The notes under the pieces are model-generated. The model was given only the letters and a program-made list of their open reading frames with translations, was not told the DNA's origin and searched no databases. Shown here in pieces: positions 1-44,379 of a stretch of 64,000 nucleotides of DNA. The first letter of the stretch is position 1. Each line of letters begins with the position of its first letter. Both the position numbers and the translations under genes were made by a program. The DNA lies in assembly GCF_030068615.1 (NCBI RefSeq), contig NZ_JASJOC010000001.1, positions 558,001-622,000 of the forward strand, in the 5' to 3' direction. This DNA comes from Halostagnicola sp. A-GB9-2. GTDB taxonomy: Archaea > Halobacteriota > Halobacteria > Halobacteriales > Natrialbaceae.

Positions 1-182
1 CGGTAGACGAAACGGTCGAAGAAAAGGTCGAAAAAACCGTCGATGAAAAGGTGGACGAAACTGTCGACGAGACGGTCGAAGAAACCGTCGAAGAAAAGGT
101 CGAGGAGAAAGTCGAAGAGATAGCGACCGAGGACGAGCCGCTGGCTGGCGACGACGACTCGGAACCGGATTCGACAAACTGA
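1..182 (+). CDS. C-terminal end of a protein with acidic tetrapeptide repeats (partial)
   Basis: Only the last 59 codons are in the window, read from base 3 and ending in TGA at 180-182. The visible part is about eleven copies of a four-residue unit of the type V-[D/E]-E-[T/K], followed by an acidic tail ending DSTN. At DNA level the repeat is a 12-base unit (gtcgaNgaNacN-like) with silent changes. The regular Val spacing suggests an extended amphipathic helix or coil. The family cannot be recognised without the N-terminus. Confidence 0.7.
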   Translation, partial: VDETVEEKVEKTVDEKVDETVDETVEETVEEKVEEKVEEIATEDEPLAGDDDSEPDSTN

Positions 183-313
183 CTCGAGCAACCGATTCGA
201 ACGAATCGAGGGGTGATTCGACCGACGTTCGTTCAACTGACTGTTGCCAACTCGTGGACGAGTCGCAGTATGCAGGCCATATTGGTTTTACCGTCGTCGG
301 CACAGAAGCGGGT

Positions 314-847
314 ATGTCAGAACTCGACCGGCGAACGATCGTCAAAGCGCTCGGAATGAGTATTCCGCTTGGCGGACTCGTGAGTTCGTCAGTCTTTGCA
401 CAGGAGGACGAGAACGGAACCCAAAGCGAGGACAACGACGACGGCGACGAGCCGGATTACGGCGACTGGTTCGACGACGTCGATAACTACGAGGAGACCG
501 AAGACGAACTCGACGAAGACGAGGTGACCGTCGAAGTGGGGACAGGTGACGACGGCTTCAAGTTCGATCCCCCCGCGATCCGAATCTCCGAAGGGACGAC
601 GGTGGTCTGGGAGTGGACCGGTGACGGCGGCCAGCACGACGTCGTCCACGACCCCGAAGCAGAGGAAGACGAAGATATCGAAGACGCGAGCGACGCTGAC
701 GAACCCGAGTTCGAAAGCGAGCTTTCGGACGAGGAAGGCCACACGTTCGAACACGAGTTCGACGGGGCGGGAACGTACCTGTACGTCTGTACCCCACACC
801 AGACTGTCGGCATGAAAGGCGCAGTCGTCGTCGACGAGTCCGAATGA
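314..847 (+). CDS. Halocyanin-type blue copper protein, Tat-exported
   Basis: This 177-residue secreted protein starts with a Tat signal (RR at residues 6-7, hydrophobic stretch to the Ala-Gln near 29-30). A very acidic linker runs to about residue 70, followed by a cupredoxin domain. The type-1 copper ligands are visible: His108 in GGQHDV, Cys159 in YVCTPH, His162 and Met167. Halocyanins are mobile one-electron carriers on the outer face of the haloarchaeal membrane. An acidic insertion at about 113-141 lies between the first ligand and the C-terminal ligand cluster. An in-frame ATG at 254 exists, but only the start at 314 places the Tat motif at the N-terminus. The gene stands alone. Confidence 0.88.
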   Translation: MSELDRRTIVKALGMSIPLGGLVSSSVFAQEDENGTQSEDNDDGDEPDYGDWFDDVDNYEETEDELDEDEVTVEVGTGDDGFKFDPPAIRISEGTTVVWEWTGDGGQHDVVHDPEAEEDEDIEDASDADEPEFESELSDEEGHTFEHEFDGAGTYLYVCTPHQTVGMKGAVVVDESE

Positions 848-880
848 ATCTCTGGTAGCGGACATCTCCTCTCGTGGCGC

Positions 881-1582
881 TCAGAGGAGTCCTCGACACG
901 CTTCGAGGGACGGAAACCAGAGCGTCTCCTCGCTCCCTTCGTCTCGAACCGCGGGATGAAAGCCGTCAGAGTCACGAACCAGCGGCGACTGGAAGTCCCG
1001 CCCGCCCATCCCGTTTACCGTCGCTCCGCGAGCGAGTCGGGTGAACGCCGGACAGACGAGCACGTCCGCTCCGTCGTACGCGCCGGGTCCGTAGAGAAAA
1101 CACGGCAGTTTCCGTCCGTCGACCGAGAGCGCCGGGTGATCGTGGCCGACGATGTACCGTTCGGCCGTCGAACTCGGCTCCTCGTGACCGTGACAGACCA
1201 CGGTCTTGCCGTCCTCGAGTCGATACTCCTCGCGAGCGGCTCCGTCGTAGACTCCCTCGAGCATCGTGTCGTGATTGCCGGGCGTGACGACGAGCGACGC
1301 GCCGAACGCGTCGATCAGCTCTCGCATCTCCTGGATAGCTGATTCGACGCCGCGTGGAACCCGATCGAACGAGTGCAAGAGATCGCCAGCGATCACGACT
1401 GTCGACGGCTCGTGTGTCTCGAGAAGCGCCTCGAGACGGGAGATGCTGTCGCCCGAATCATCGAGCGGCACCTCGACTCTCGAGGCGGCTCCTTTTCCCA
1501 GATGCAGATCGGCGGCGACGAGTGCGTCCGCCTGCGGGATGAAAACCGAACGCGAGGCGAGCGAAAACTCAGTCTCCACCAT
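881..1582 (-). CDS. Calcineurin-like metallophosphoesterase (COG1407 type)
   Basis: This 233-residue protein has the dimetal phosphoesterase motifs in order: D-x-H (ADLHLGK, about 25), GDLLH (about 66), GNHD (about 101) and the later H-x-H (CHGHE, GHDH). COG1407 proteins are often annotated as ICC-like phosphoesterases, and their substrate is not established. The start overlaps the end of the archaeosortase gene by 14 bases on the same strand, so the two are probably co-transcribed and translationally coupled. A role in archaeosortase processing is possible but is only an inference from that overlap. Confidence 0.85.
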   Translation of the reverse strand: MVETEFSLASRSVFIPQADALVAADLHLGKGAASRVEVPLDDSGDSISRLEALLETHEPSTVVIAGDLLHSFDRVPRGVESAIQEMRELIDAFGASLVVTPGNHDTMLEGVYDGAAREEYRLEDGKTVVCHGHEEPSSTAERYIVGHDHPALSVDGRKLPCFLYGPGAYDGADVLVCPAFTRLARGATVNGMGGRDFQSPLVRDSDGFHPAVRDEGSEETLWFPSLEACRGLL

Positions 1583-2612
1583 CGGTCGTCTTGTCCACGT
1601 TGACTGCCTCCTCGAGATCGTATTCGTTCCCCGAGAGGATAAAGAGTACCTCCTCTAAGGGCTCGAGGATCTCGGGGAGGATCTTGATGAGGAGGTAGGT
1701 GATCCCCAAGAGTGCGATCACCGATCCAACCTGGGAGATGTAGTTGTGGGCGACGAGGTAGGAGACGCGATTGGCCTCCGCACCCAGATAGGTCGTCATG
1801 ATGTGGACGATCGTCTCCTGCTGGAACCAGCCCCACGGCGATGCGAGGCCGATGAAGACGTTCCGGACGAGGTTGAGGAACCAGATGACGCCGATCGCGA
1901 TGGCGAACGCGACCGCTTTCCGTTTGAGCGGCGCTTTCACGGCGGCGATGAGACCGCCGAAGATGGCCATACTGCCGAGTCCGGTACAGGCCATGACGAT
2001 GTAGGTCGTCCGACCCGTGACGGTTTCCTCGGAGTCGAAGTCGAACCGACTCTCGTACCCGTTGCTCCCTTCGACGATTCCCGGACTGTGACCGAGCAGT
2101 TCCATGCCGTAGTGGGTCTGGGCCGCGGTCGTCTCGATCAACCATGTGCGGACAAACGGGATCGTCTCTGCGGGCAGATAGATCAGCCCCATGATCGCAA
2201 CCGCCTTCGAGAGCAACAGCAACGACTCTCGACCGCCGACGAGCAGATACGCCGTATACGCACACAGCGGGAGCGCAACGAGCGCGAGTATGCTCTGGAG
2301 TGGGCTCTGGATTTCATAATAGTAGTGTGGCGTCATTAACAGCCAGAAGAACCCGAACAACACCCACGCCGTCGCGGCGACGTGGCGAGCGGGGTCGATC
2401 GCGCCGCGCCACTGGAGGACGAAGGCCAGGACGAAAATCCCGATCGACGCCCATGCGAGCAGATCCACGAGTGCGATCGAGCCGATGATCGTCACCCGCG
2501 TCAATTCCGTAATTGCCGGAGTCATCGTCGCCGGGTTCGCGGCCTCGAGGCCGGCGCTCGAGTCGAACGCACCGGCCGCCGAAATACCAGTCGCCGCGGG
2601 GAGAGACGACAT
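1569..2612 (-). CDS. artA: Archaeosortase A
   Basis: This 347-residue polytopic membrane cysteine peptidase/transferase has about eight hydrophobic segments. The exosortase/archaeosortase signatures are present: catalytic Cys209 in MACTGLGSM, Arg250 in NLVRNVFIG, and the conserved Arg282/His289 region. In Haloferax, ArtA removes the C-terminal PGF-CTERM helix of surface proteins such as the S-layer glycoprotein and allows lipid attachment. No PGF-CTERM substrate is encoded in this window, so it acts on proteins from elsewhere. I chose ATG at 2612; a GTG two codons upstream (2618) and ATG at residue 31 are alternatives. The 3' end overlaps the metallophosphoesterase gene. Confidence 0.92.
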   Translation of the reverse strand: MSSLPAATGISAAGAFDSSAGLEAANPATMTPAITELTRVTIIGSIALVDLLAWASIGIFVLAFVLQWRGAIDPARHVAATAWVLFGFFWLLMTPHYYYEIQSPLQSILALVALPLCAYTAYLLVGGRESLLLLSKAVAIMGLIYLPAETIPFVRTWLIETTAAQTHYGMELLGHSPGIVEGSNGYESRFDFDSEETVTGRTTYIVMACTGLGSMAIFGGLIAAVKAPLKRKAVAFAIAIGVIWFLNLVRNVFIGLASPWGWFQQETIVHIMTTYLGAEANRVSYLVAHNYISQVGSVIALLGITYLLIKILPEILEPLEEVLFILSGNEYDLEEAVNVDKTTDGGD

Positions 2613-2796
2613 ATTCACGTCGAAGTGACGGACTCTCGCGCTATCAACTTGACGAAAGGGGAGGCGTCGGGGCTCGGTTCTCCATTTCGGACCCGCTTGA
2701 GGTCCTCTCGATCGGCGGAGTCAATCGACTGGTCGGCAGATTCCGGGAGCGAAAGGCGACACGGTGATTTATGCCCGTTGTATGACAATGTCTGGT

Positions 2797-3579
2797 ATGG
2801 TCCGTCCAACCTACGACTACGGCGATTCGACGGTCGTCATCACGGGAGCCAGTTCGGGAATCGGGCGCGAAATCGCCCGTCGGTTCGGTTCGTGTGGCGC
2901 GACCGTCCTCAACGGCGACCTCGAGCGCGACCCGAAGGACGCCGACATCCCGACGGACGAACTGCTCGAGGACGGCCCCGGAACCGGCGTCTACGTCGAG
3001 ACCGACGTGACCGAACGCGAGTCGCTCGAGTCGCTCGTCGAGGCGGCCCGCGAGTACGGCGGCATCGACGTGATGATCAACAACGCCGGACTCCAGATCC
3101 CGAAATCGATGGCCGACGTGACTCCCGAGGAGTTCGATCGCATCCACGCCGTCAACTCAAAGGGCGCGTTTTTCGGCACGCAGATCGCCGCAGAAGAGAT
3201 GCTCGAACGGGACGATCCCGGCGCGATCATCAACACGGCCTCGATCAGTTCGAATCACGCTCAGTTCGAACAGGTTCCATACGATTCGTCCAAAGGCTCG
3301 GTTCGAATGATTACTCGAGGAGCCGCCCTCGAGTACGCTGAGGACGGAATCAGGGTCAACGGCGTCGCGCCGGGCCAGATCGCGACCGAGTTCACCGACG
3401 GCTGGGCCGAACAGGCTCGAGAGAAGGTCGAAAACGACGAGTTGCTCAAACCGGTCCCGCTGGGTCGCGCCGGCACGCCCGAGGACGTTGCGGGAGCCTA
3501 TCTCTTCCTCGCGAGCGACGACGCCGCCTACGTCGTGGGCGAACTGCTCCACGTCGACGGCGGCTGGCAGACCTGCTGA
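2797..3579 (+). CDS. Short-chain dehydrogenase/reductase (glucose dehydrogenase/FabG-like)
   Basis: This is a classical SDR of about 260 residues: the Rossmann glycine motif TGASSGIG, the structural NNAG, the catalytic Ser in ASISS, YDSSK with the Tyr-x3-Lys pair, and a C-terminal VDGGW. It is probably NAD(P)-dependent and cytoplasmic; the substrate cannot be deduced. The start is uncertain: in-frame GTG 2764 and ATG 2782, 2788 and 2797 exist. A TTTAT box near 2768-2772 fits a leaderless transcript beginning around 2790-2797, so I use 2797. It is monocistronic and divergent from artA. Confidence 0.85.
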   Translation: MVRPTYDYGDSTVVITGASSGIGREIARRFGSCGATVLNGDLERDPKDADIPTDELLEDGPGTGVYVETDVTERESLESLVEAAREYGGIDVMINNAGLQIPKSMADVTPEEFDRIHAVNSKGAFFGTQIAAEEMLERDDPGAIINTASISSNHAQFEQVPYDSSKGSVRMITRGAALEYAEDGIRVNGVAPGQIATEFTDGWAEQAREKVENDELLKPVPLGRAGTPEDVAGAYLFLASDDAAYVVGELLHVDGGWQTC

Positions 3580-3620
3580 CCGGTCTCGGCGATATAGTTA
3601 ATCGACCGGAGCAATCCCAC

Positions 3621-4121
3621 TCAGTCCAACCGCTCACTGGTTTCTGCGTGTTCTTTCGAGAGCGAGACGTACCGTTCGGCGGTCTCTGCGAGCCTCGAGC
3701 CCTCGATTTCGGTTTTGGGCTCGGCGGGGGCTCCCGCAACGAGCGTCGACGGCGAGACGTCAGTCCCTTCCGTCACGACGCTTCCCGCCGCCACGACGGC
3801 CTTCTCGCCGATGTGTGAACCGTCGAGAACAACCGCGTTCATCCCGACGAGCGCGCGTTCGGCGACCGTCGCGTTGTGGACGATCGCGCTATGTCCGATC
3901 GTCGAGTAGGGCTCGAGTTCGGCGTCTTCGTGGAGGACGGCGTTGTCCTGGACGTTCGCACCTTCGCCGACCACGATCGTCCCGTGATCGCCGCGCAGGG
4001 TCGTGTTCGGCCAGACGCTGGCGTCCGCTTCGATCACGACGTCGCCGATGACGACCGCGGCGTCGTCCACGTAGGCCGAGTCTGCGATCCGGGGCTCCGT
4101 CCCGTCGAACGAGCGTATCAT
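3621..4121 (-). CDS. Gamma-carbonic-anhydrase-like hexapeptide-repeat protein
   Basis: The protein has 166 residues built of left-handed beta-helix hexapeptide repeats ([IV]-G-x4 type). It is preceded by the typical gamma-class N-terminus with TLRGD, and the ligand-type histidines are seen in VLHED, IGHSA and IVHNA. Such proteins are trimers that bind a metal between subunits. Some are carbonic anhydrases and many have unknown activity. The open frame extends upstream, but only the ATG at 4121 gives the family-type start (MIRSFDG). It lies 3' of the DUF3006 gene on the same strand with a gap of about 90 bases. Confidence 0.83.
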   Translation of the reverse strand: MIRSFDGTEPRIADSAYVDDAAVVIGDVVIEADASVWPNTTLRGDHGTIVVGEGANVQDNAVLHEDAELEPYSTIGHSAIVHNATVAERALVGMNAVVLDGSHIGEKAVVAAGSVVTEGTDVSPSTLVAGAPAEPKTEIEGSRLAETAERYVSLSKEHAETSERLD

Positions 4122-4209
4122 ACGTAGGGCTGTCTCGAGAACGGGCTTGAAACTGCCCATTCCTGTTGTGTCAGTTGCGGATTTCGGCAGGCGAATTCCG
4201 CCCGCCCTG

Positions 4210-4482
4210 CTACTCGTCCGAAAGTCGTTCGGAGAGGTCGTCGAATCGATTCTGGGCTTGCTCGCGGCGCTCCCGTTCGTCTTCGGCTTTGTAGGCTGTC
4301 TCGAGGATCGAATCCTCACTCACGTCGACTTCGAAGACAGCACCCTCGTGTCGGCCGTTGGCGGGAAGCTCCTCGATCGGAACAGTTCGTTCCTCGGTTA
4401 CGGATCCGTCTTCCTCGAGCAGGAGCACCGCCGTTTTCCCGTCGACGATCCGGTCGAGGACGGCCGTGTATTTGGACGACAT
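4210..4482 (-). CDS. DUF3006 domain protein
   Basis: This small acidic protein of 90 residues has a beta-rich core (about 1-50) and a charged helical tail rich in Glu and Arg. The N-terminal pattern (tAVLDRIVDGKTAVLLLEE) is that of DUF3006, a family of unknown function that is commonly encoded beside ComEC/Rec2-like beta-lactamase-fold proteins. Here it follows exactly such a gene. The ATG overlaps the upstream stop codon by one base (TAATG), so translation is coupled. Confidence 0.8.
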   Translation of the reverse strand: MSSKYTAVLDRIVDGKTAVLLLEEDGSVTEERTVPIEELPANGRHEGAVFEVDVSEDSILETAYKAEDERERREQAQNRFDDLSERLSDE

Positions 4483-5594
4483 TAGCTGAGTGCAACACCT
4501 CCGGTGGTATCAATCGGGGTGTCTGCGTCTCGGATAACGTTTGCGGCGTCGTCCTCGTTACCAGCCTGGTCGTTCGATTTCTTCTCGAGCAGATCCTCGG
4601 GGTCGCTCGAGCCCTCGTGCTCGGTCGAAACGGCGCTCGATTCGCCGTCGGTCGTCACGACCACGTCGCCATGGACGGCGGTCCAGTAGGTTTCGATATC
4701 GCGCTCGCCGAACTCCTCGAGCACCTCGTCGTTCGGGTGGTCGTACTGTGACTCTGCCGCGCTCGAGATGACCGCGATTTCGGGTGTCGACGCGTCGAGT
4801 TTCGGAGCGGTCGAAGAGGTCGACGAACCGTGGTGACCCGCCTGATAGACGTCGCTCTCGAGGTGGTCACCCCACTCTTCGGCCATTCGCTCTTCGGCGT
4901 CTTCCTCGGCATCGCCCGTCGTGAGATACGAGAACTCGCCGAATTCGATCGAGAGAGCGACGCTGTTGTAGTGGAGGTCGGCCCCCGAGTCTCCCTCGGG
5001 CGGGTTCAGGACCGAGGCCTCGAGCCCCTCGTCATCGACCGGGAGCTCGTCCCCTTCCGCGACCTCGAACAGTTGCACATCGTGTTCCTCGATCGCGTCA
5101 AGGTAGTTGTCGTAGGTCTGGCTCGTGTGCGCGACGCCGGAATCGTAGGCCGCACCGACGCCGTCGCCCTCGTCCTCGAAGTGTTCGATAACCGCCGCGT
5201 GGCCGCCGATGTGGTCGGCGTGGCCGTGGGTCGCAACCAGATGATCGACGCGATAGACGCCGCGGTCCTCGAGATACTCGATAACGTCGGATCCGTCGCT
5301 CTGCCAGTCGCCGGTATCGATCAGGATCGTCTCGTCGTCGGGCGTGATCAGGAGCGTGGCGTCAGCTTGACCGACATCGATGTGATGCAGTTCGAGCTCT
5401 CCGTCGACATCGGCCGTCGACGGCGAGATTTCGTCGTCCGTTCCCGGAATGCTGGTACAGCCGGCGAGGACGAGCATCGTCGCCACGGCCAGTACGAGTA
5501 AGACACGCTTCGAAGCCAACGTGCGTCTTGATGGGACTAGATGTCTCGGAGAGGCCACACGCCCGGAAGGCAATAGATGGCTCAGCGCACTCAT
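4482..5594 (-). CDS. ComEC/Rec2-like metallo-beta-lactamase-fold lipoprotein
   Basis: A 370-residue protein with a hydrophobic N-terminal segment (about 31-45) ending in the lipobox LAGC (Cys46), so it is probably an externally anchored lipoprotein. The mature part is a metallo-beta-lactamase fold: GQADATLL, IDTGD, the metal motif THGHADH, TTGDAEEDAE and AGHHGS. These resemble the hydrolase domain of ComEC, which degrades the non-transforming DNA strand in competent bacteria, but the ComEC membrane channel is absent. A low-complexity tail runs from about 325 to the end. The n-region before the signal is long, so the true start may lie downstream. Nuclease activity is an inference. Confidence 0.8.
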   Translation of the reverse strand: MSALSHLLPSGRVASPRHLVPSRRTLASKRVLLVLAVATMLVLAGCTSIPGTDDEISPSTADVDGELELHHIDVGQADATLLITPDDETILIDTGDWQSDGSDVIEYLEDRGVYRVDHLVATHGHADHIGGHAAVIEHFEDEGDGVGAAYDSGVAHTSQTYDNYLDAIEEHDVQLFEVAEGDELPVDDEGLEASVLNPPEGDSGADLHYNSVALSIEFGEFSYLTTGDAEEDAEERMAEEWGDHLESDVYQAGHHGSSTSSTAPKLDASTPEIAVISSAAESQYDHPNDEVLEEFGERDIETYWTAVHGDVVVTTDGESSAVSTEHEGSSDPEDLLEKKSNDQAGNEDDAANVIRDADTPIDTTGGVALS

Positions 5595-5690
5595 AAAGTG
5601 AAAAGGTAGCGTGCAAGTAAGGTCGTTGGGGAAACCAGTTCAGGCCTCGAGGTCTGCAATCGAGTACTGGTATCGATCGATCGATCGGTG

Positions 5691-5722
5691 GGTTCGATCG
5701 GCCAGTGGTTCGATCGGCCAGT
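5691..5722. repeat. Perfect 16-bp tandem duplication
   Basis: The unit GGTTCGATCGGCCAGT occurs twice without a gap (5691-5706, 5707-5722), directly after a run of GATC steps at about 5675-5688. It lies between the lipoprotein gene (starting at 5594, minus strand) and the 3' end of the OsmC gene. No function is evident. Confidence 0.8.
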
Positions 5723-5767
5723 GGGTCTCAATTAATCGGTTCTGCAGCGTCTCTAAGGCTCAGTCGA

Positions 5768-6163
5768 CTAGAATGCGCCGCCCTCGAGGCTCTTGTCGGC
5801 GTGCAACTCGCTTTTCAGCGCGTCGTGGACCTTGCAGAGTTCGTCCGCGCGCTCGAGGACGTTCTCGGCGGTTTCGTCGTCGACGTCGGCTTCGACCTGG
5901 ATGTCGAACTCGATCGACTCGAGTTTGTCGTCGTCGTTTTGCTCGCCGCTGACGTCGATTTCGATCCGTCCCATGTCGTCGACGCCACGTTGTTCTCCGC
6001 CGACGCGGAGCGCGGGGACGTAACATGAACCATACGCGGCCAGCAGGGCCTCGAGCGTGTCGGGAGCGTCCTCGCCCGTCGCGTCGATGGTCGTCTCGAA
6101 GTCCCGGGTTTCGTTCGTCGCGCTGAATCCTTCCTCGGACGTCGTGGTTACTGTTTTGGACAT
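5768..6163 (-). CDS. OsmC family protein
   Basis: The protein has 131 residues with the OsmC/Ohr fold: an N-terminal beta part, LEALLAAYGSCYVPAL carrying the first conserved cysteine (about 47), and a C-terminal C-x-V-H segment (ELCKVHDAL) carrying the second (about 110). The Cys pair of this family reduces organic hydroperoxides. With both residues present, a peroxidase role in oxidative defence is likely, though some OsmC members act otherwise. It is a single gene on the minus strand. Confidence 0.88.
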   Translation of the reverse strand: MSKTVTTTSEEGFSATNETRDFETTIDATGEDAPDTLEALLAAYGSCYVPALRVGGEQRGVDDMGRIEIDVSGEQNDDDKLESIEFDIQVEADVDDETAENVLERADELCKVHDALKSELHADKSLEGGAF

Positions 6164-43403: not shown

Positions 43404-43602
43404 CCGCACCGTGATGGCTACGCTACGTGCGGTGGTGCGCACTGCTCGCGGGTCGCGATAGCGATCCGCGAGTGAAACTGCACGAGGGATGAGTGAGCGG
43501 AGCGTCGCGGAACAGCGAACGGCGAAGTCGTTCGAAACGGCCTGCCGTTTCGTGACTGAGCGAATCACAGATTCGCGAGGTCCGCGAGATCAGAGATCTC
43601 GC
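43404..43602. repeat. Cluster of five short hairpins in a gene-free region
   Basis: Five inverted repeats occur in 200 bases: CCGCAC/GTGCGG (43404-43432), CTCGCGGGTCGC/GCGATCCGCGAG (43445-43472, one mismatch), CGAAACGG/CCGTTTCG (43533-43552), GCGAATC/GATTCGC (43560-43576) and GCGAGATC/GATCTCGC (43584-43602). The whole interval 43327-43765 has no convincing gene. Such clusters often mark ends of mobile elements in haloarchaea. Confidence 0.6.
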
Positions 43603-43765
43603 TTGATGACGAAAGACGCGAGCATCTTTCGAACCACCGTGAGCCTGCGAGCGAGCGAATCGGCTGGGGAGGATGTGGAAATTCCTGTTGCCAGCGTTCG
43701 TCTTGTTGTCCAACGCAGCAGCACTTCCCGTAGACACATTATTCCCCACCTGAAACAATAGTTAT

Positions 43766-43921
43766 ATGACACTACAGGGCGTAATGGCAAATGGAAGCCA
43801 ACACTCCACGGAAGGGGGCGTTCGTATTGAAATGCCCTGGGTGGTAAGAGCACCCGAGACGTGGCTTCCGAACCCGTCAAGGGTCAGTTGCCATGATACG
43901 ATTGCTTCTCCGCGGGCTTAA
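43766..43921 (+). ncRNA. Compact structured element; possible RNA or solo IS200/IS605 end
   Basis: Nested stems are directly visible. P1 is ATGGCAA (43784-43790) with TTGCCAT (43888-43894). P2 is GGAAGCCA (43793-43800) with TGGCTTCC (43862-43869). Inside P2, GGGCGTT pairs with AATGCCC (43816-43837) and GGGTG with CACCC (43839-43855). Between the P2 and P1 3' arms, ACCC pairs with GGGT (43872-43884). A GTTATAT box lies at 43761-43767. A 51-codon open frame (43766-43921) covers the same bases but has unbiased third positions. It may be a free RNA or a remnant right end of an IS200/IS605-type element whose scaffold RNA folds like this. The strand is uncertain. Confidence 0.45.
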
Positions 43922-43986
43922 ACATCCCGTCCGACAGACTCGTAGTATAACAACCAGAAACGGCACTCGGAAACGGACAAGCGGTT

Positions 43987-44379
43987 CTAGGCGTCTCGGT
44001 CCGCCGCTTCGAGTAAGATGACCGCTCCCCCGAGCAAGGCGACGTTCTTCAGGAAATTGGTCTTGTTCGCCTGCCGCTCCTCGCCCTCCATGGTCCAGAA
44101 GTCGTGGATCGACGGCGTGGTGGTCAAAAAGAAGACGATCAGCGCACCGGCGGACACTCGAGGGAATTTCCAAAGCAGGATGCCGAGATTCGCCACGAAG
44201 AGCATGCCGGTCACGAACGGAACCAGGAGGTCCGGAACCGGAACGCCCTTCGCTCGAGCGACCTCGACGCGCTTTTCGTTGTTCTTGAATCCATCGACGG
44301 CCATGTACGCGAGGATGCCGCCGTACAGCGCCCGGCCGAGGGCCGACGGCGGCTCACTCGAGGAGCCGGGATCGGACAC
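43987..44379 (-). CDS. DoxX family membrane protein
   Basis: The protein has 130 residues and four hydrophobic helices (about 13-30, 50-72, 75-95, 106-122). It has the DoxX pattern near VPVPDLLVPFVTGMLFVANLGILLW, quoted in part. DoxX-like proteins occur with oxidoreductases and redox systems; no precise function can be given. It starts with GTG immediately after the TGA of the Asp-box protein gene (TGA-GTG, no gap), so it is the second gene of that operon. Confidence 0.75.
   Translation of the reverse strand: MSDPGSSSEPPSALGRALYGGILAYMAVDGFKNNEKRVEVARAKGVPVPDLLVPFVTGMLFVANLGILLWKFPRVSAGALIVFFLTTTPSIHDFWTMEGEERQANKTNFLKNVALLGGAVILLEAADRDA

Follow-up and report, generated by a model that had tools for sequence, protein, structure and literature searches.

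Between scpA and a minus-strand gene, the window (the whole 64,000-nucleotide stretch of Halostagnicola sp. A-GB9-2 DNA analysed here) carries at 43766-43921 a dense cluster of potential helices that no gene explains, raising the question of what kind of element it is. A sequence-only reading had proposed an independent RNA or a leftover IS200/IS605 right end containing a guide-RNA scaffold. Comparative analysis places the element in a leader RNA family that is widespread and carried by haloarchaea and some of their viruses and plasmids, and we consider the window element likely to be a copy of a cis-acting 5′ leader RNA that works as a riboswitch-like translational switch. Judged by fold and placement, this class of leader switch is apparently undescribed so far: a title and abstract search of the literature, with thin coverage of subscription journals, returned no published description of the leader RNA.

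A folded RNA and its promoter

All features of the window copy lie on the plus strand. An archaeal TATA box (AATAGTTATATG, 43757-43768), placed by the position of the TATA-like 8-mer in the family and by the alignment of sister copies, stands upstream of a conserved RNA body running from about 43790 to 43939 (model match 43786-43937), which scores 112.9 bits (E = 1.3e-27) with covariance model R1 and 119 bits with the wider model R2. The conserved closing helix is P1, formed by GGAAGCCA (43793-43800) and TGGCTTCC (43862-43869), which closes a three-way junction; two-sided changes occur at 8/8 P1 pairs, and 97.1% of its cells are paired in alignment A5 (see below). Within it, P2 pairs GGGCGTT (43816-43822) with AATGCCC (43831-43837), the latter preceded by a conserved TTGAA loop and supported by alignments and covariation, with two-sided changes at 6/6 pairs. 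P3 pairs TGGGTG (43838-43843), in which T replaces the C of the other aligned copies, with CACCCG (43851-43856), placed by alignment and covariation and followed by the conserved junction GAGAC. Further downstream come the P4 hairpin ACCC-GTCAA-GGGT (43872-43884), recognised by eye in the alignments, outside the model and variable in sequence among copies, and the start-codon segment GCC-ATG (43890-43895). The leader opens a short ORF of 42 codons (43893-44021) that contains the P5 hairpin GCGGG-CTTAAACAT-CCCGT (43912-43930; two-sided changes at 5/5 pairs, 76.1% of cells paired). The tail of this ORF is not conserved among copies, and at this locus it is not family sequence past about 43939. 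The aligned copies share one layout, consisting of a TATA box, P1 (GGAAGCC/GGCTTCC) around P2 and P3, the GAGAC junction, the variable P4, GAAGCC or GGTTGCC, ATG and P5; the family forms are GGGGCAT/ATGCCCC with TGAA in the loop for P2, CGGGTG/CACCCG for P3 and a UAAA loop for P5.

Much of what had been read from the letters alone survives this comparison. Several helices are present, the eight-pair one being P1; the TATA-like GTTATAT does lie upstream; and the 51-codon frame over 43766-43921 is indeed not the coding frame, its start falling inside the promoter. The supposed closing stem of seven pairs (43784-43790 with 43888-43894, ATGGCAA/TTGCCAT) has to be given up, as it is not conserved in sister copies and begins 5′ of the predicted transcription start.

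Folding energy was ruled out as proof of structure, the window stretch having an MFE z of only -0.97 with 37 of 200 shuffles folding equally well, and the case for an RNA therefore rests on comparison, through copies and covariation. Model R1, built from 25 sequences, found the 83 distinct rows of alignment A5, from which R2 was built. In A5, 92.6% of cells pair and 23 of the 25 model pairs show two-sided changes, amounting to 129 two-sided cells against 26 in shuffles (0/500 as high), whereas sliding the partner by 1-3 columns left 5-12 pairs and 7-45 cells. Alignment A6 (60 rows, mostly from other families, with three chance rows kept in) gave two-sided changes at 24/25 pairs and 290 cells versus 89 in shuffles (0/500). 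Fitting the alignments to the model works in the model's favour, but the slid controls came nowhere near these values. The weakest helix is P5, at about 75% paired; explaining it by coding alone is not favoured, because the compensating changes alter amino acids (GGA/CCC to AGA/CTC), and broken P5 pairs do occur (76% paired). Conserved codons instead of compensatory base changes had been named earlier as the outcome that would count against an RNA; compensatory changes were found, and together with the 11 copies in the genome this covariation supports the earlier idea of a structured RNA. Rfam release 15 contains no family reaching its gathering score anywhere in the window. At E ≤ 1, locus L031 yielded only a sub-threshold Flavi repeat and snoU89, and seven distant leader loci yielded only a tRNA and a CRISPR repeat, both off the leaders.

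In 100 of 147 distinct family members a TATA-like 8-mer precedes P1 by 28 or 27 nt, and a TATA-like tetramer occurs in that region in 134 of the 147, compared with 17 in a control region. The usual distance from an archaeal TATA box to the transcription start fits a start at P1, and transcription is therefore predicted to begin there, at about 43790-43795 in the window copy.

Downstream genes and distribution

The family sits in cis, 5′ of genes, and is not a gene-less small RNA. Three of the 147 members have no ATG by the rule used and 139 have a closed first ORF, which is at most 95 codons long in 117; the remaining 22 open a longer ORF directly. A coupled second ORF (at least 45 codons, at -10 to +40 nt) follows 104 of the 117 short ORFs, exactly at ATGA in 56 cases, against 48/221 in the two remaining frames counted from that ATG. 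The C[PY]xC zinc-finger motif is found in 83 of the 117 short-ORF operons and in 9/221 in the other two frames, the contrast being weaker for a stop within ATGA (63/117 vs 70/234). In the majority of the family, then, the AUG begins a short ORF to which a zinc-finger gene is coupled; in other copies it leads into SWIM or viral early genes. A long first ORF can be the gene itself, for a SWIM protein, a PHROG viral protein or the zinc finger fused to the short ORF. For a Haladaptatus SWIM gene, RefSeq places the start codon at the leader's ATG. Further downstream genes encode PadR, integrases and RAMP-like proteins; no ribosomal protein gene appeared in the sample of downstream proteins examined. 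One Halostagnicola zinc-finger protein that was scanned matched HalOD1 at 19.9 bits, against a Pfam cut-off of 26.3 bits. The leader operons at L277 and L283 encode RAMP-superfamily proteins (E = 0.002 and 0.0005, a little short of the Pfam cut-off) that are possibly CRISPR-related. At about 1620-2047 of L304, a Natrinema plasmid, the PLSDB table, itself incomplete, lists no feature under or just after the leader, so small downstream genes may be unannotated.

The window locus departs from this arrangement. As the sequence-only reading had observed, the next plus-strand gene is about 1.7 kb away (start 45592), and no neighbouring gene uses the element. No leader lies within 1.5 kb downstream of scpA in four same-genus genomes that have scpA. 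Window positions 43427-43939, comprising a repeat-rich upstream part, the promoter and the leader, are collinear with a locus of genome G001 at which the leader precedes a 112-codon HalOD1-like zinc-finger gene; in the window genome, contig C33 has the flanks of this G001 locus side by side, with the middle part absent. On the simplest reading of these alignments, a fragment ending near 43939 probably moved beside scpA and left its gene behind, which would make the window copy a displaced orphan that has lost its zinc-finger gene, probably a relic. The move is probable and not proven, because the upstream part is itself repetitive. The portion at 43427-43700 is hairpin-rich, and pieces of it match C33:120318, C33:120453, C12:581146 and C1:793486 in the same genome. 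The copies in G001 and G003 were also considered as orthologues of the scpA copy and dropped, since the neighbouring gene differs.

DNA search detected 11 copies in the window genome, of which 8 align along most of the 261-base query at 79-100%, and the broader model R2 detected 16. Across the window genome and 60 relatives, 24 of 61 genomes had DNA matches. R1 matched 29/41 genomes of the family, with 1 to 32 copies each, and 40/146 order-level genomes. A covariance-model search of haloarchaeal genomes, as suggested from the sequence, gave R2 matches in 211 of 292 genomes of the class; at the level of the phylum, R2 matched 23/196 genomes, 23/23 in the window's order. An exact-pattern scan of named genomes returned 105 stretches, and all 80 kept as loci were haloarchaeal. 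The window leader also matches 10 plasmid records, and a distant leader matches 15 Haladaptatus records. Among eight virus stretches searched, R2 matched three haloviruses, HRPV-9 (E = 2.4e-11), Humcor2 (3.1e-8) and SNJ2 (5.2e-6), the model E-values being rough; the haloviral leaders lie directly 5′ of a rightward operon that includes an integrase. The exact-pattern scan of viral contigs gave 0 matches, blastn of the window and L106 leaders against phages gave none, and model searches of PhiCh1, HHTV-2 and LSV-48N stretches gave no significant match.

Several further loci deserve mention. BJ1 and Humcor1 are alike by eye only, and PhiCh1 (L224) has long inverted repeats at 5546-5806 and 1868-2128, just 5′ of the PadR and ORF49 start codons, in a layout that is similar by eye and is not matched by the models. 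Genome G002, of the same genus (2.8 Mb), has no copy by DNA search, R1 or R2, in contrast to the many in G000, G001, G003 and G004. At L059 (G024 C1:1565000-1580000), four leader copies lie in about 4.3 kb, one of them degraded (55 bits vs about 120), and a CRISPR repeat (RF01337) occurs at 7194-7223 of L103, about 2 kb from a plasmid leader. A transposable element or MITE appears less likely as an explanation of the copies, inspection of their alignment by eye having shown no terminal repeats, although the window copy itself probably moved.

Exclusive helices at the start codon

The 5′ leader contains a conserved structured domain, and its arrangement suggests how a switch could operate. Transcription from the TATA-box promoter would start at P1, and P1, P2 and P3 would fold into a three-way junction with a conserved core, followed by P4 and the start codon. 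The 3′ strand of P1 could then pair with the 5′ end of the RNA, which would leave the AUG accessible, or with the AUG and the bases immediately preceding it, which would hide the start codon; the pre-ATG segment repeats the 5′ strand of P1 in outline and can therefore replace it. We infer that something bound at the junction would stabilise P1, free the AUG and turn translation on, making translation the controlled step. Ribosomes would then translate the gene directly or enter a short ORF, the stop of which overlaps the zinc-finger gene's start. In the window copy, the putative anti-P1 switch strand CGTGGC (43860-43865), overlapping the P1 3′ strand, pairs with the start-codon segment at 43890-43895 in the MFE fold.

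Both exclusive helices show covariation across the family. An early test over all copies was weak (4.67 vs 4.52 bp, with the maximum of 300 permutations equal to the observed value), because a single arm sequence predominates and several rows had the 3′ arm parsed wrongly. In later tests, with arms taken from model alignments, the start-codon segment scored 16.1 against the P1 3′ strand over 16 arm types, versus 12.1 when permuted (0/2000), and 17.3 versus 12.9 +/- 0.36 over 57 leaders (0/2000); with the AUG included, 117 unique leaders gave 17.9 versus 15.4 (0/500). At 108 places where P1 is not Watson-Crick paired, the segment copies the 5′ strand in 20, does neither in 19 and restores pairing in 69; selection of the best-pairing register biases these counts towards pairing. 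The P1 fold is better by a median of 3.1 kcal/mol over 117 leaders; the two folds lie within 5 kcal/mol of each other in 80, the alternative wins in 26, and 64 have the AUG paired in full. In one member the MFE structure has the AUG hidden, in another free. For the window copy, the MFE structure hides the AUG, the centroid has P1, and a shorter folded stretch gives P1; its alternative helix has 6 bp and its fold is not unusually stable. In its genus many copies have GGTTGCC-ATG in place of GAAGCC-ATG, so that the alternative helix shrinks to about 6 bp. Taken together, covariation and computed energies indicate a mutually exclusive helix that would hide the initiation region, weakly so in the window copy.

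The main rival, which we consider unlikely, makes the leader a protein-bound operator in which a downstream zinc-finger product, a viral repressor or a ribosomal protein selects the fold, with no small-molecule ligand. The abundance of C[PY]xC zinc-finger operons (83/117), the SWIM zinc fingers behind other leaders, and the HRPV-9 and SNJ2 leader operons, which are divergent from a repressor or regulator gene, all suit such an operator. Self-regulation by the product is, however, hard to square with an RNA core that stays the same in front of proteins that share no relationship from one family to the next (zinc finger, SWIM, integrase, PadR, RAMP). Being diverse, these genes do not point to a metabolite either, and their diversity beside a constant core argues mildly for a host-wide signal.

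More doubtful still is a constitutive leader, in which the fold would protect the mRNA 5′ end or aid initiation without a Shine-Dalgarno site and the alternative pairing would be non-regulatory. P1 stands at the predicted RNA 5′ end and in 91 of 117 leaders matches or exceeds the alternative in stability, so it may simply stay formed; yet covariation between the start-codon segment and the 3′ strand of P1 is far stronger than chance would give, and a static fold has no need of it. An independent, trans-acting small RNA appears very improbable. The structured fold and the separate promoter that led to this idea do stand, and at the window locus no gene comes next on the strand, but the stand-alone part fails, since the family is a 5′ leader running into a start codon with a gene close behind in nearly all members, the window copy being an orphan. 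TnpB guide-RNA scaffolds of IS200/IS605 elements are likewise multicopy structured RNAs of haloarchaeal genomes, and this genome has 14 TnpB Zn-ribbon (PF07282) matches, but the nearest is about 10 kb from the window element, only 1/11 copies lies within about 3 kb of one, and the constant neighbour is a downstream start codon, most often that of a zinc-finger gene and otherwise of SWIM, integrase or PadR genes, not tnpB, so the scaffold is rejected, like the stand-alone RNA, on genomic context.

Known leaders and wider meaning

The translational switch that we favour resembles known translational riboswitches in being a 5′ leader whose conserved junction core and exclusive start-codon helix were both examined by covariation. 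It differs in that the AUG itself, and not a Shine-Dalgarno site, is hidden in many members, and that one RNA class precedes unrelated genes, including viral ones. Natural riboswitches are few in archaea, with only one experimentally determined, according to PMC8241225. That paper describes the fluoride riboswitch of Thermococcus kodakarensis as a natural archaeal leader thought to act on translation, as is presumed here; the genes differ, and no Rfam family reached its gathering score in the window or in seven distant leaders. The S15 leader of Halobacteria, an archaeal ribosomal-protein leader (PMC7247131), is also a structured haloarchaeal leader 5′ of coding genes, whereas no ribosomal protein gene was seen among the downstream genes examined here. 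The plasmid PL6 sequences CIS I/II likewise form a conserved sequence 5′ of an operon with overlapping genes and a CxxC protein, with GGAGG in the operon (PMC5974055); the family model finds nothing in PL6A bases 1-6056.

More broadly, and as a tentative proposal only, the family could form a riboswitch class found throughout the haloarchaea that responds to a general signal of the host by directly exposing or hiding the AUG. Plasmids and temperate viruses would have spread it, and its expansion to tens of copies per genome in Natrialbaceae might place a zinc-finger regulon under a common signal. If true, this would be a large riboswitch class in a tractable group, common to host chromosomes, plasmids and viruses. 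The leader would then act without a Shine-Dalgarno site, a testable claim on the translational control of leadered mRNAs in haloarchaea, and the family flags small zinc-finger genes, which are possibly unannotated.
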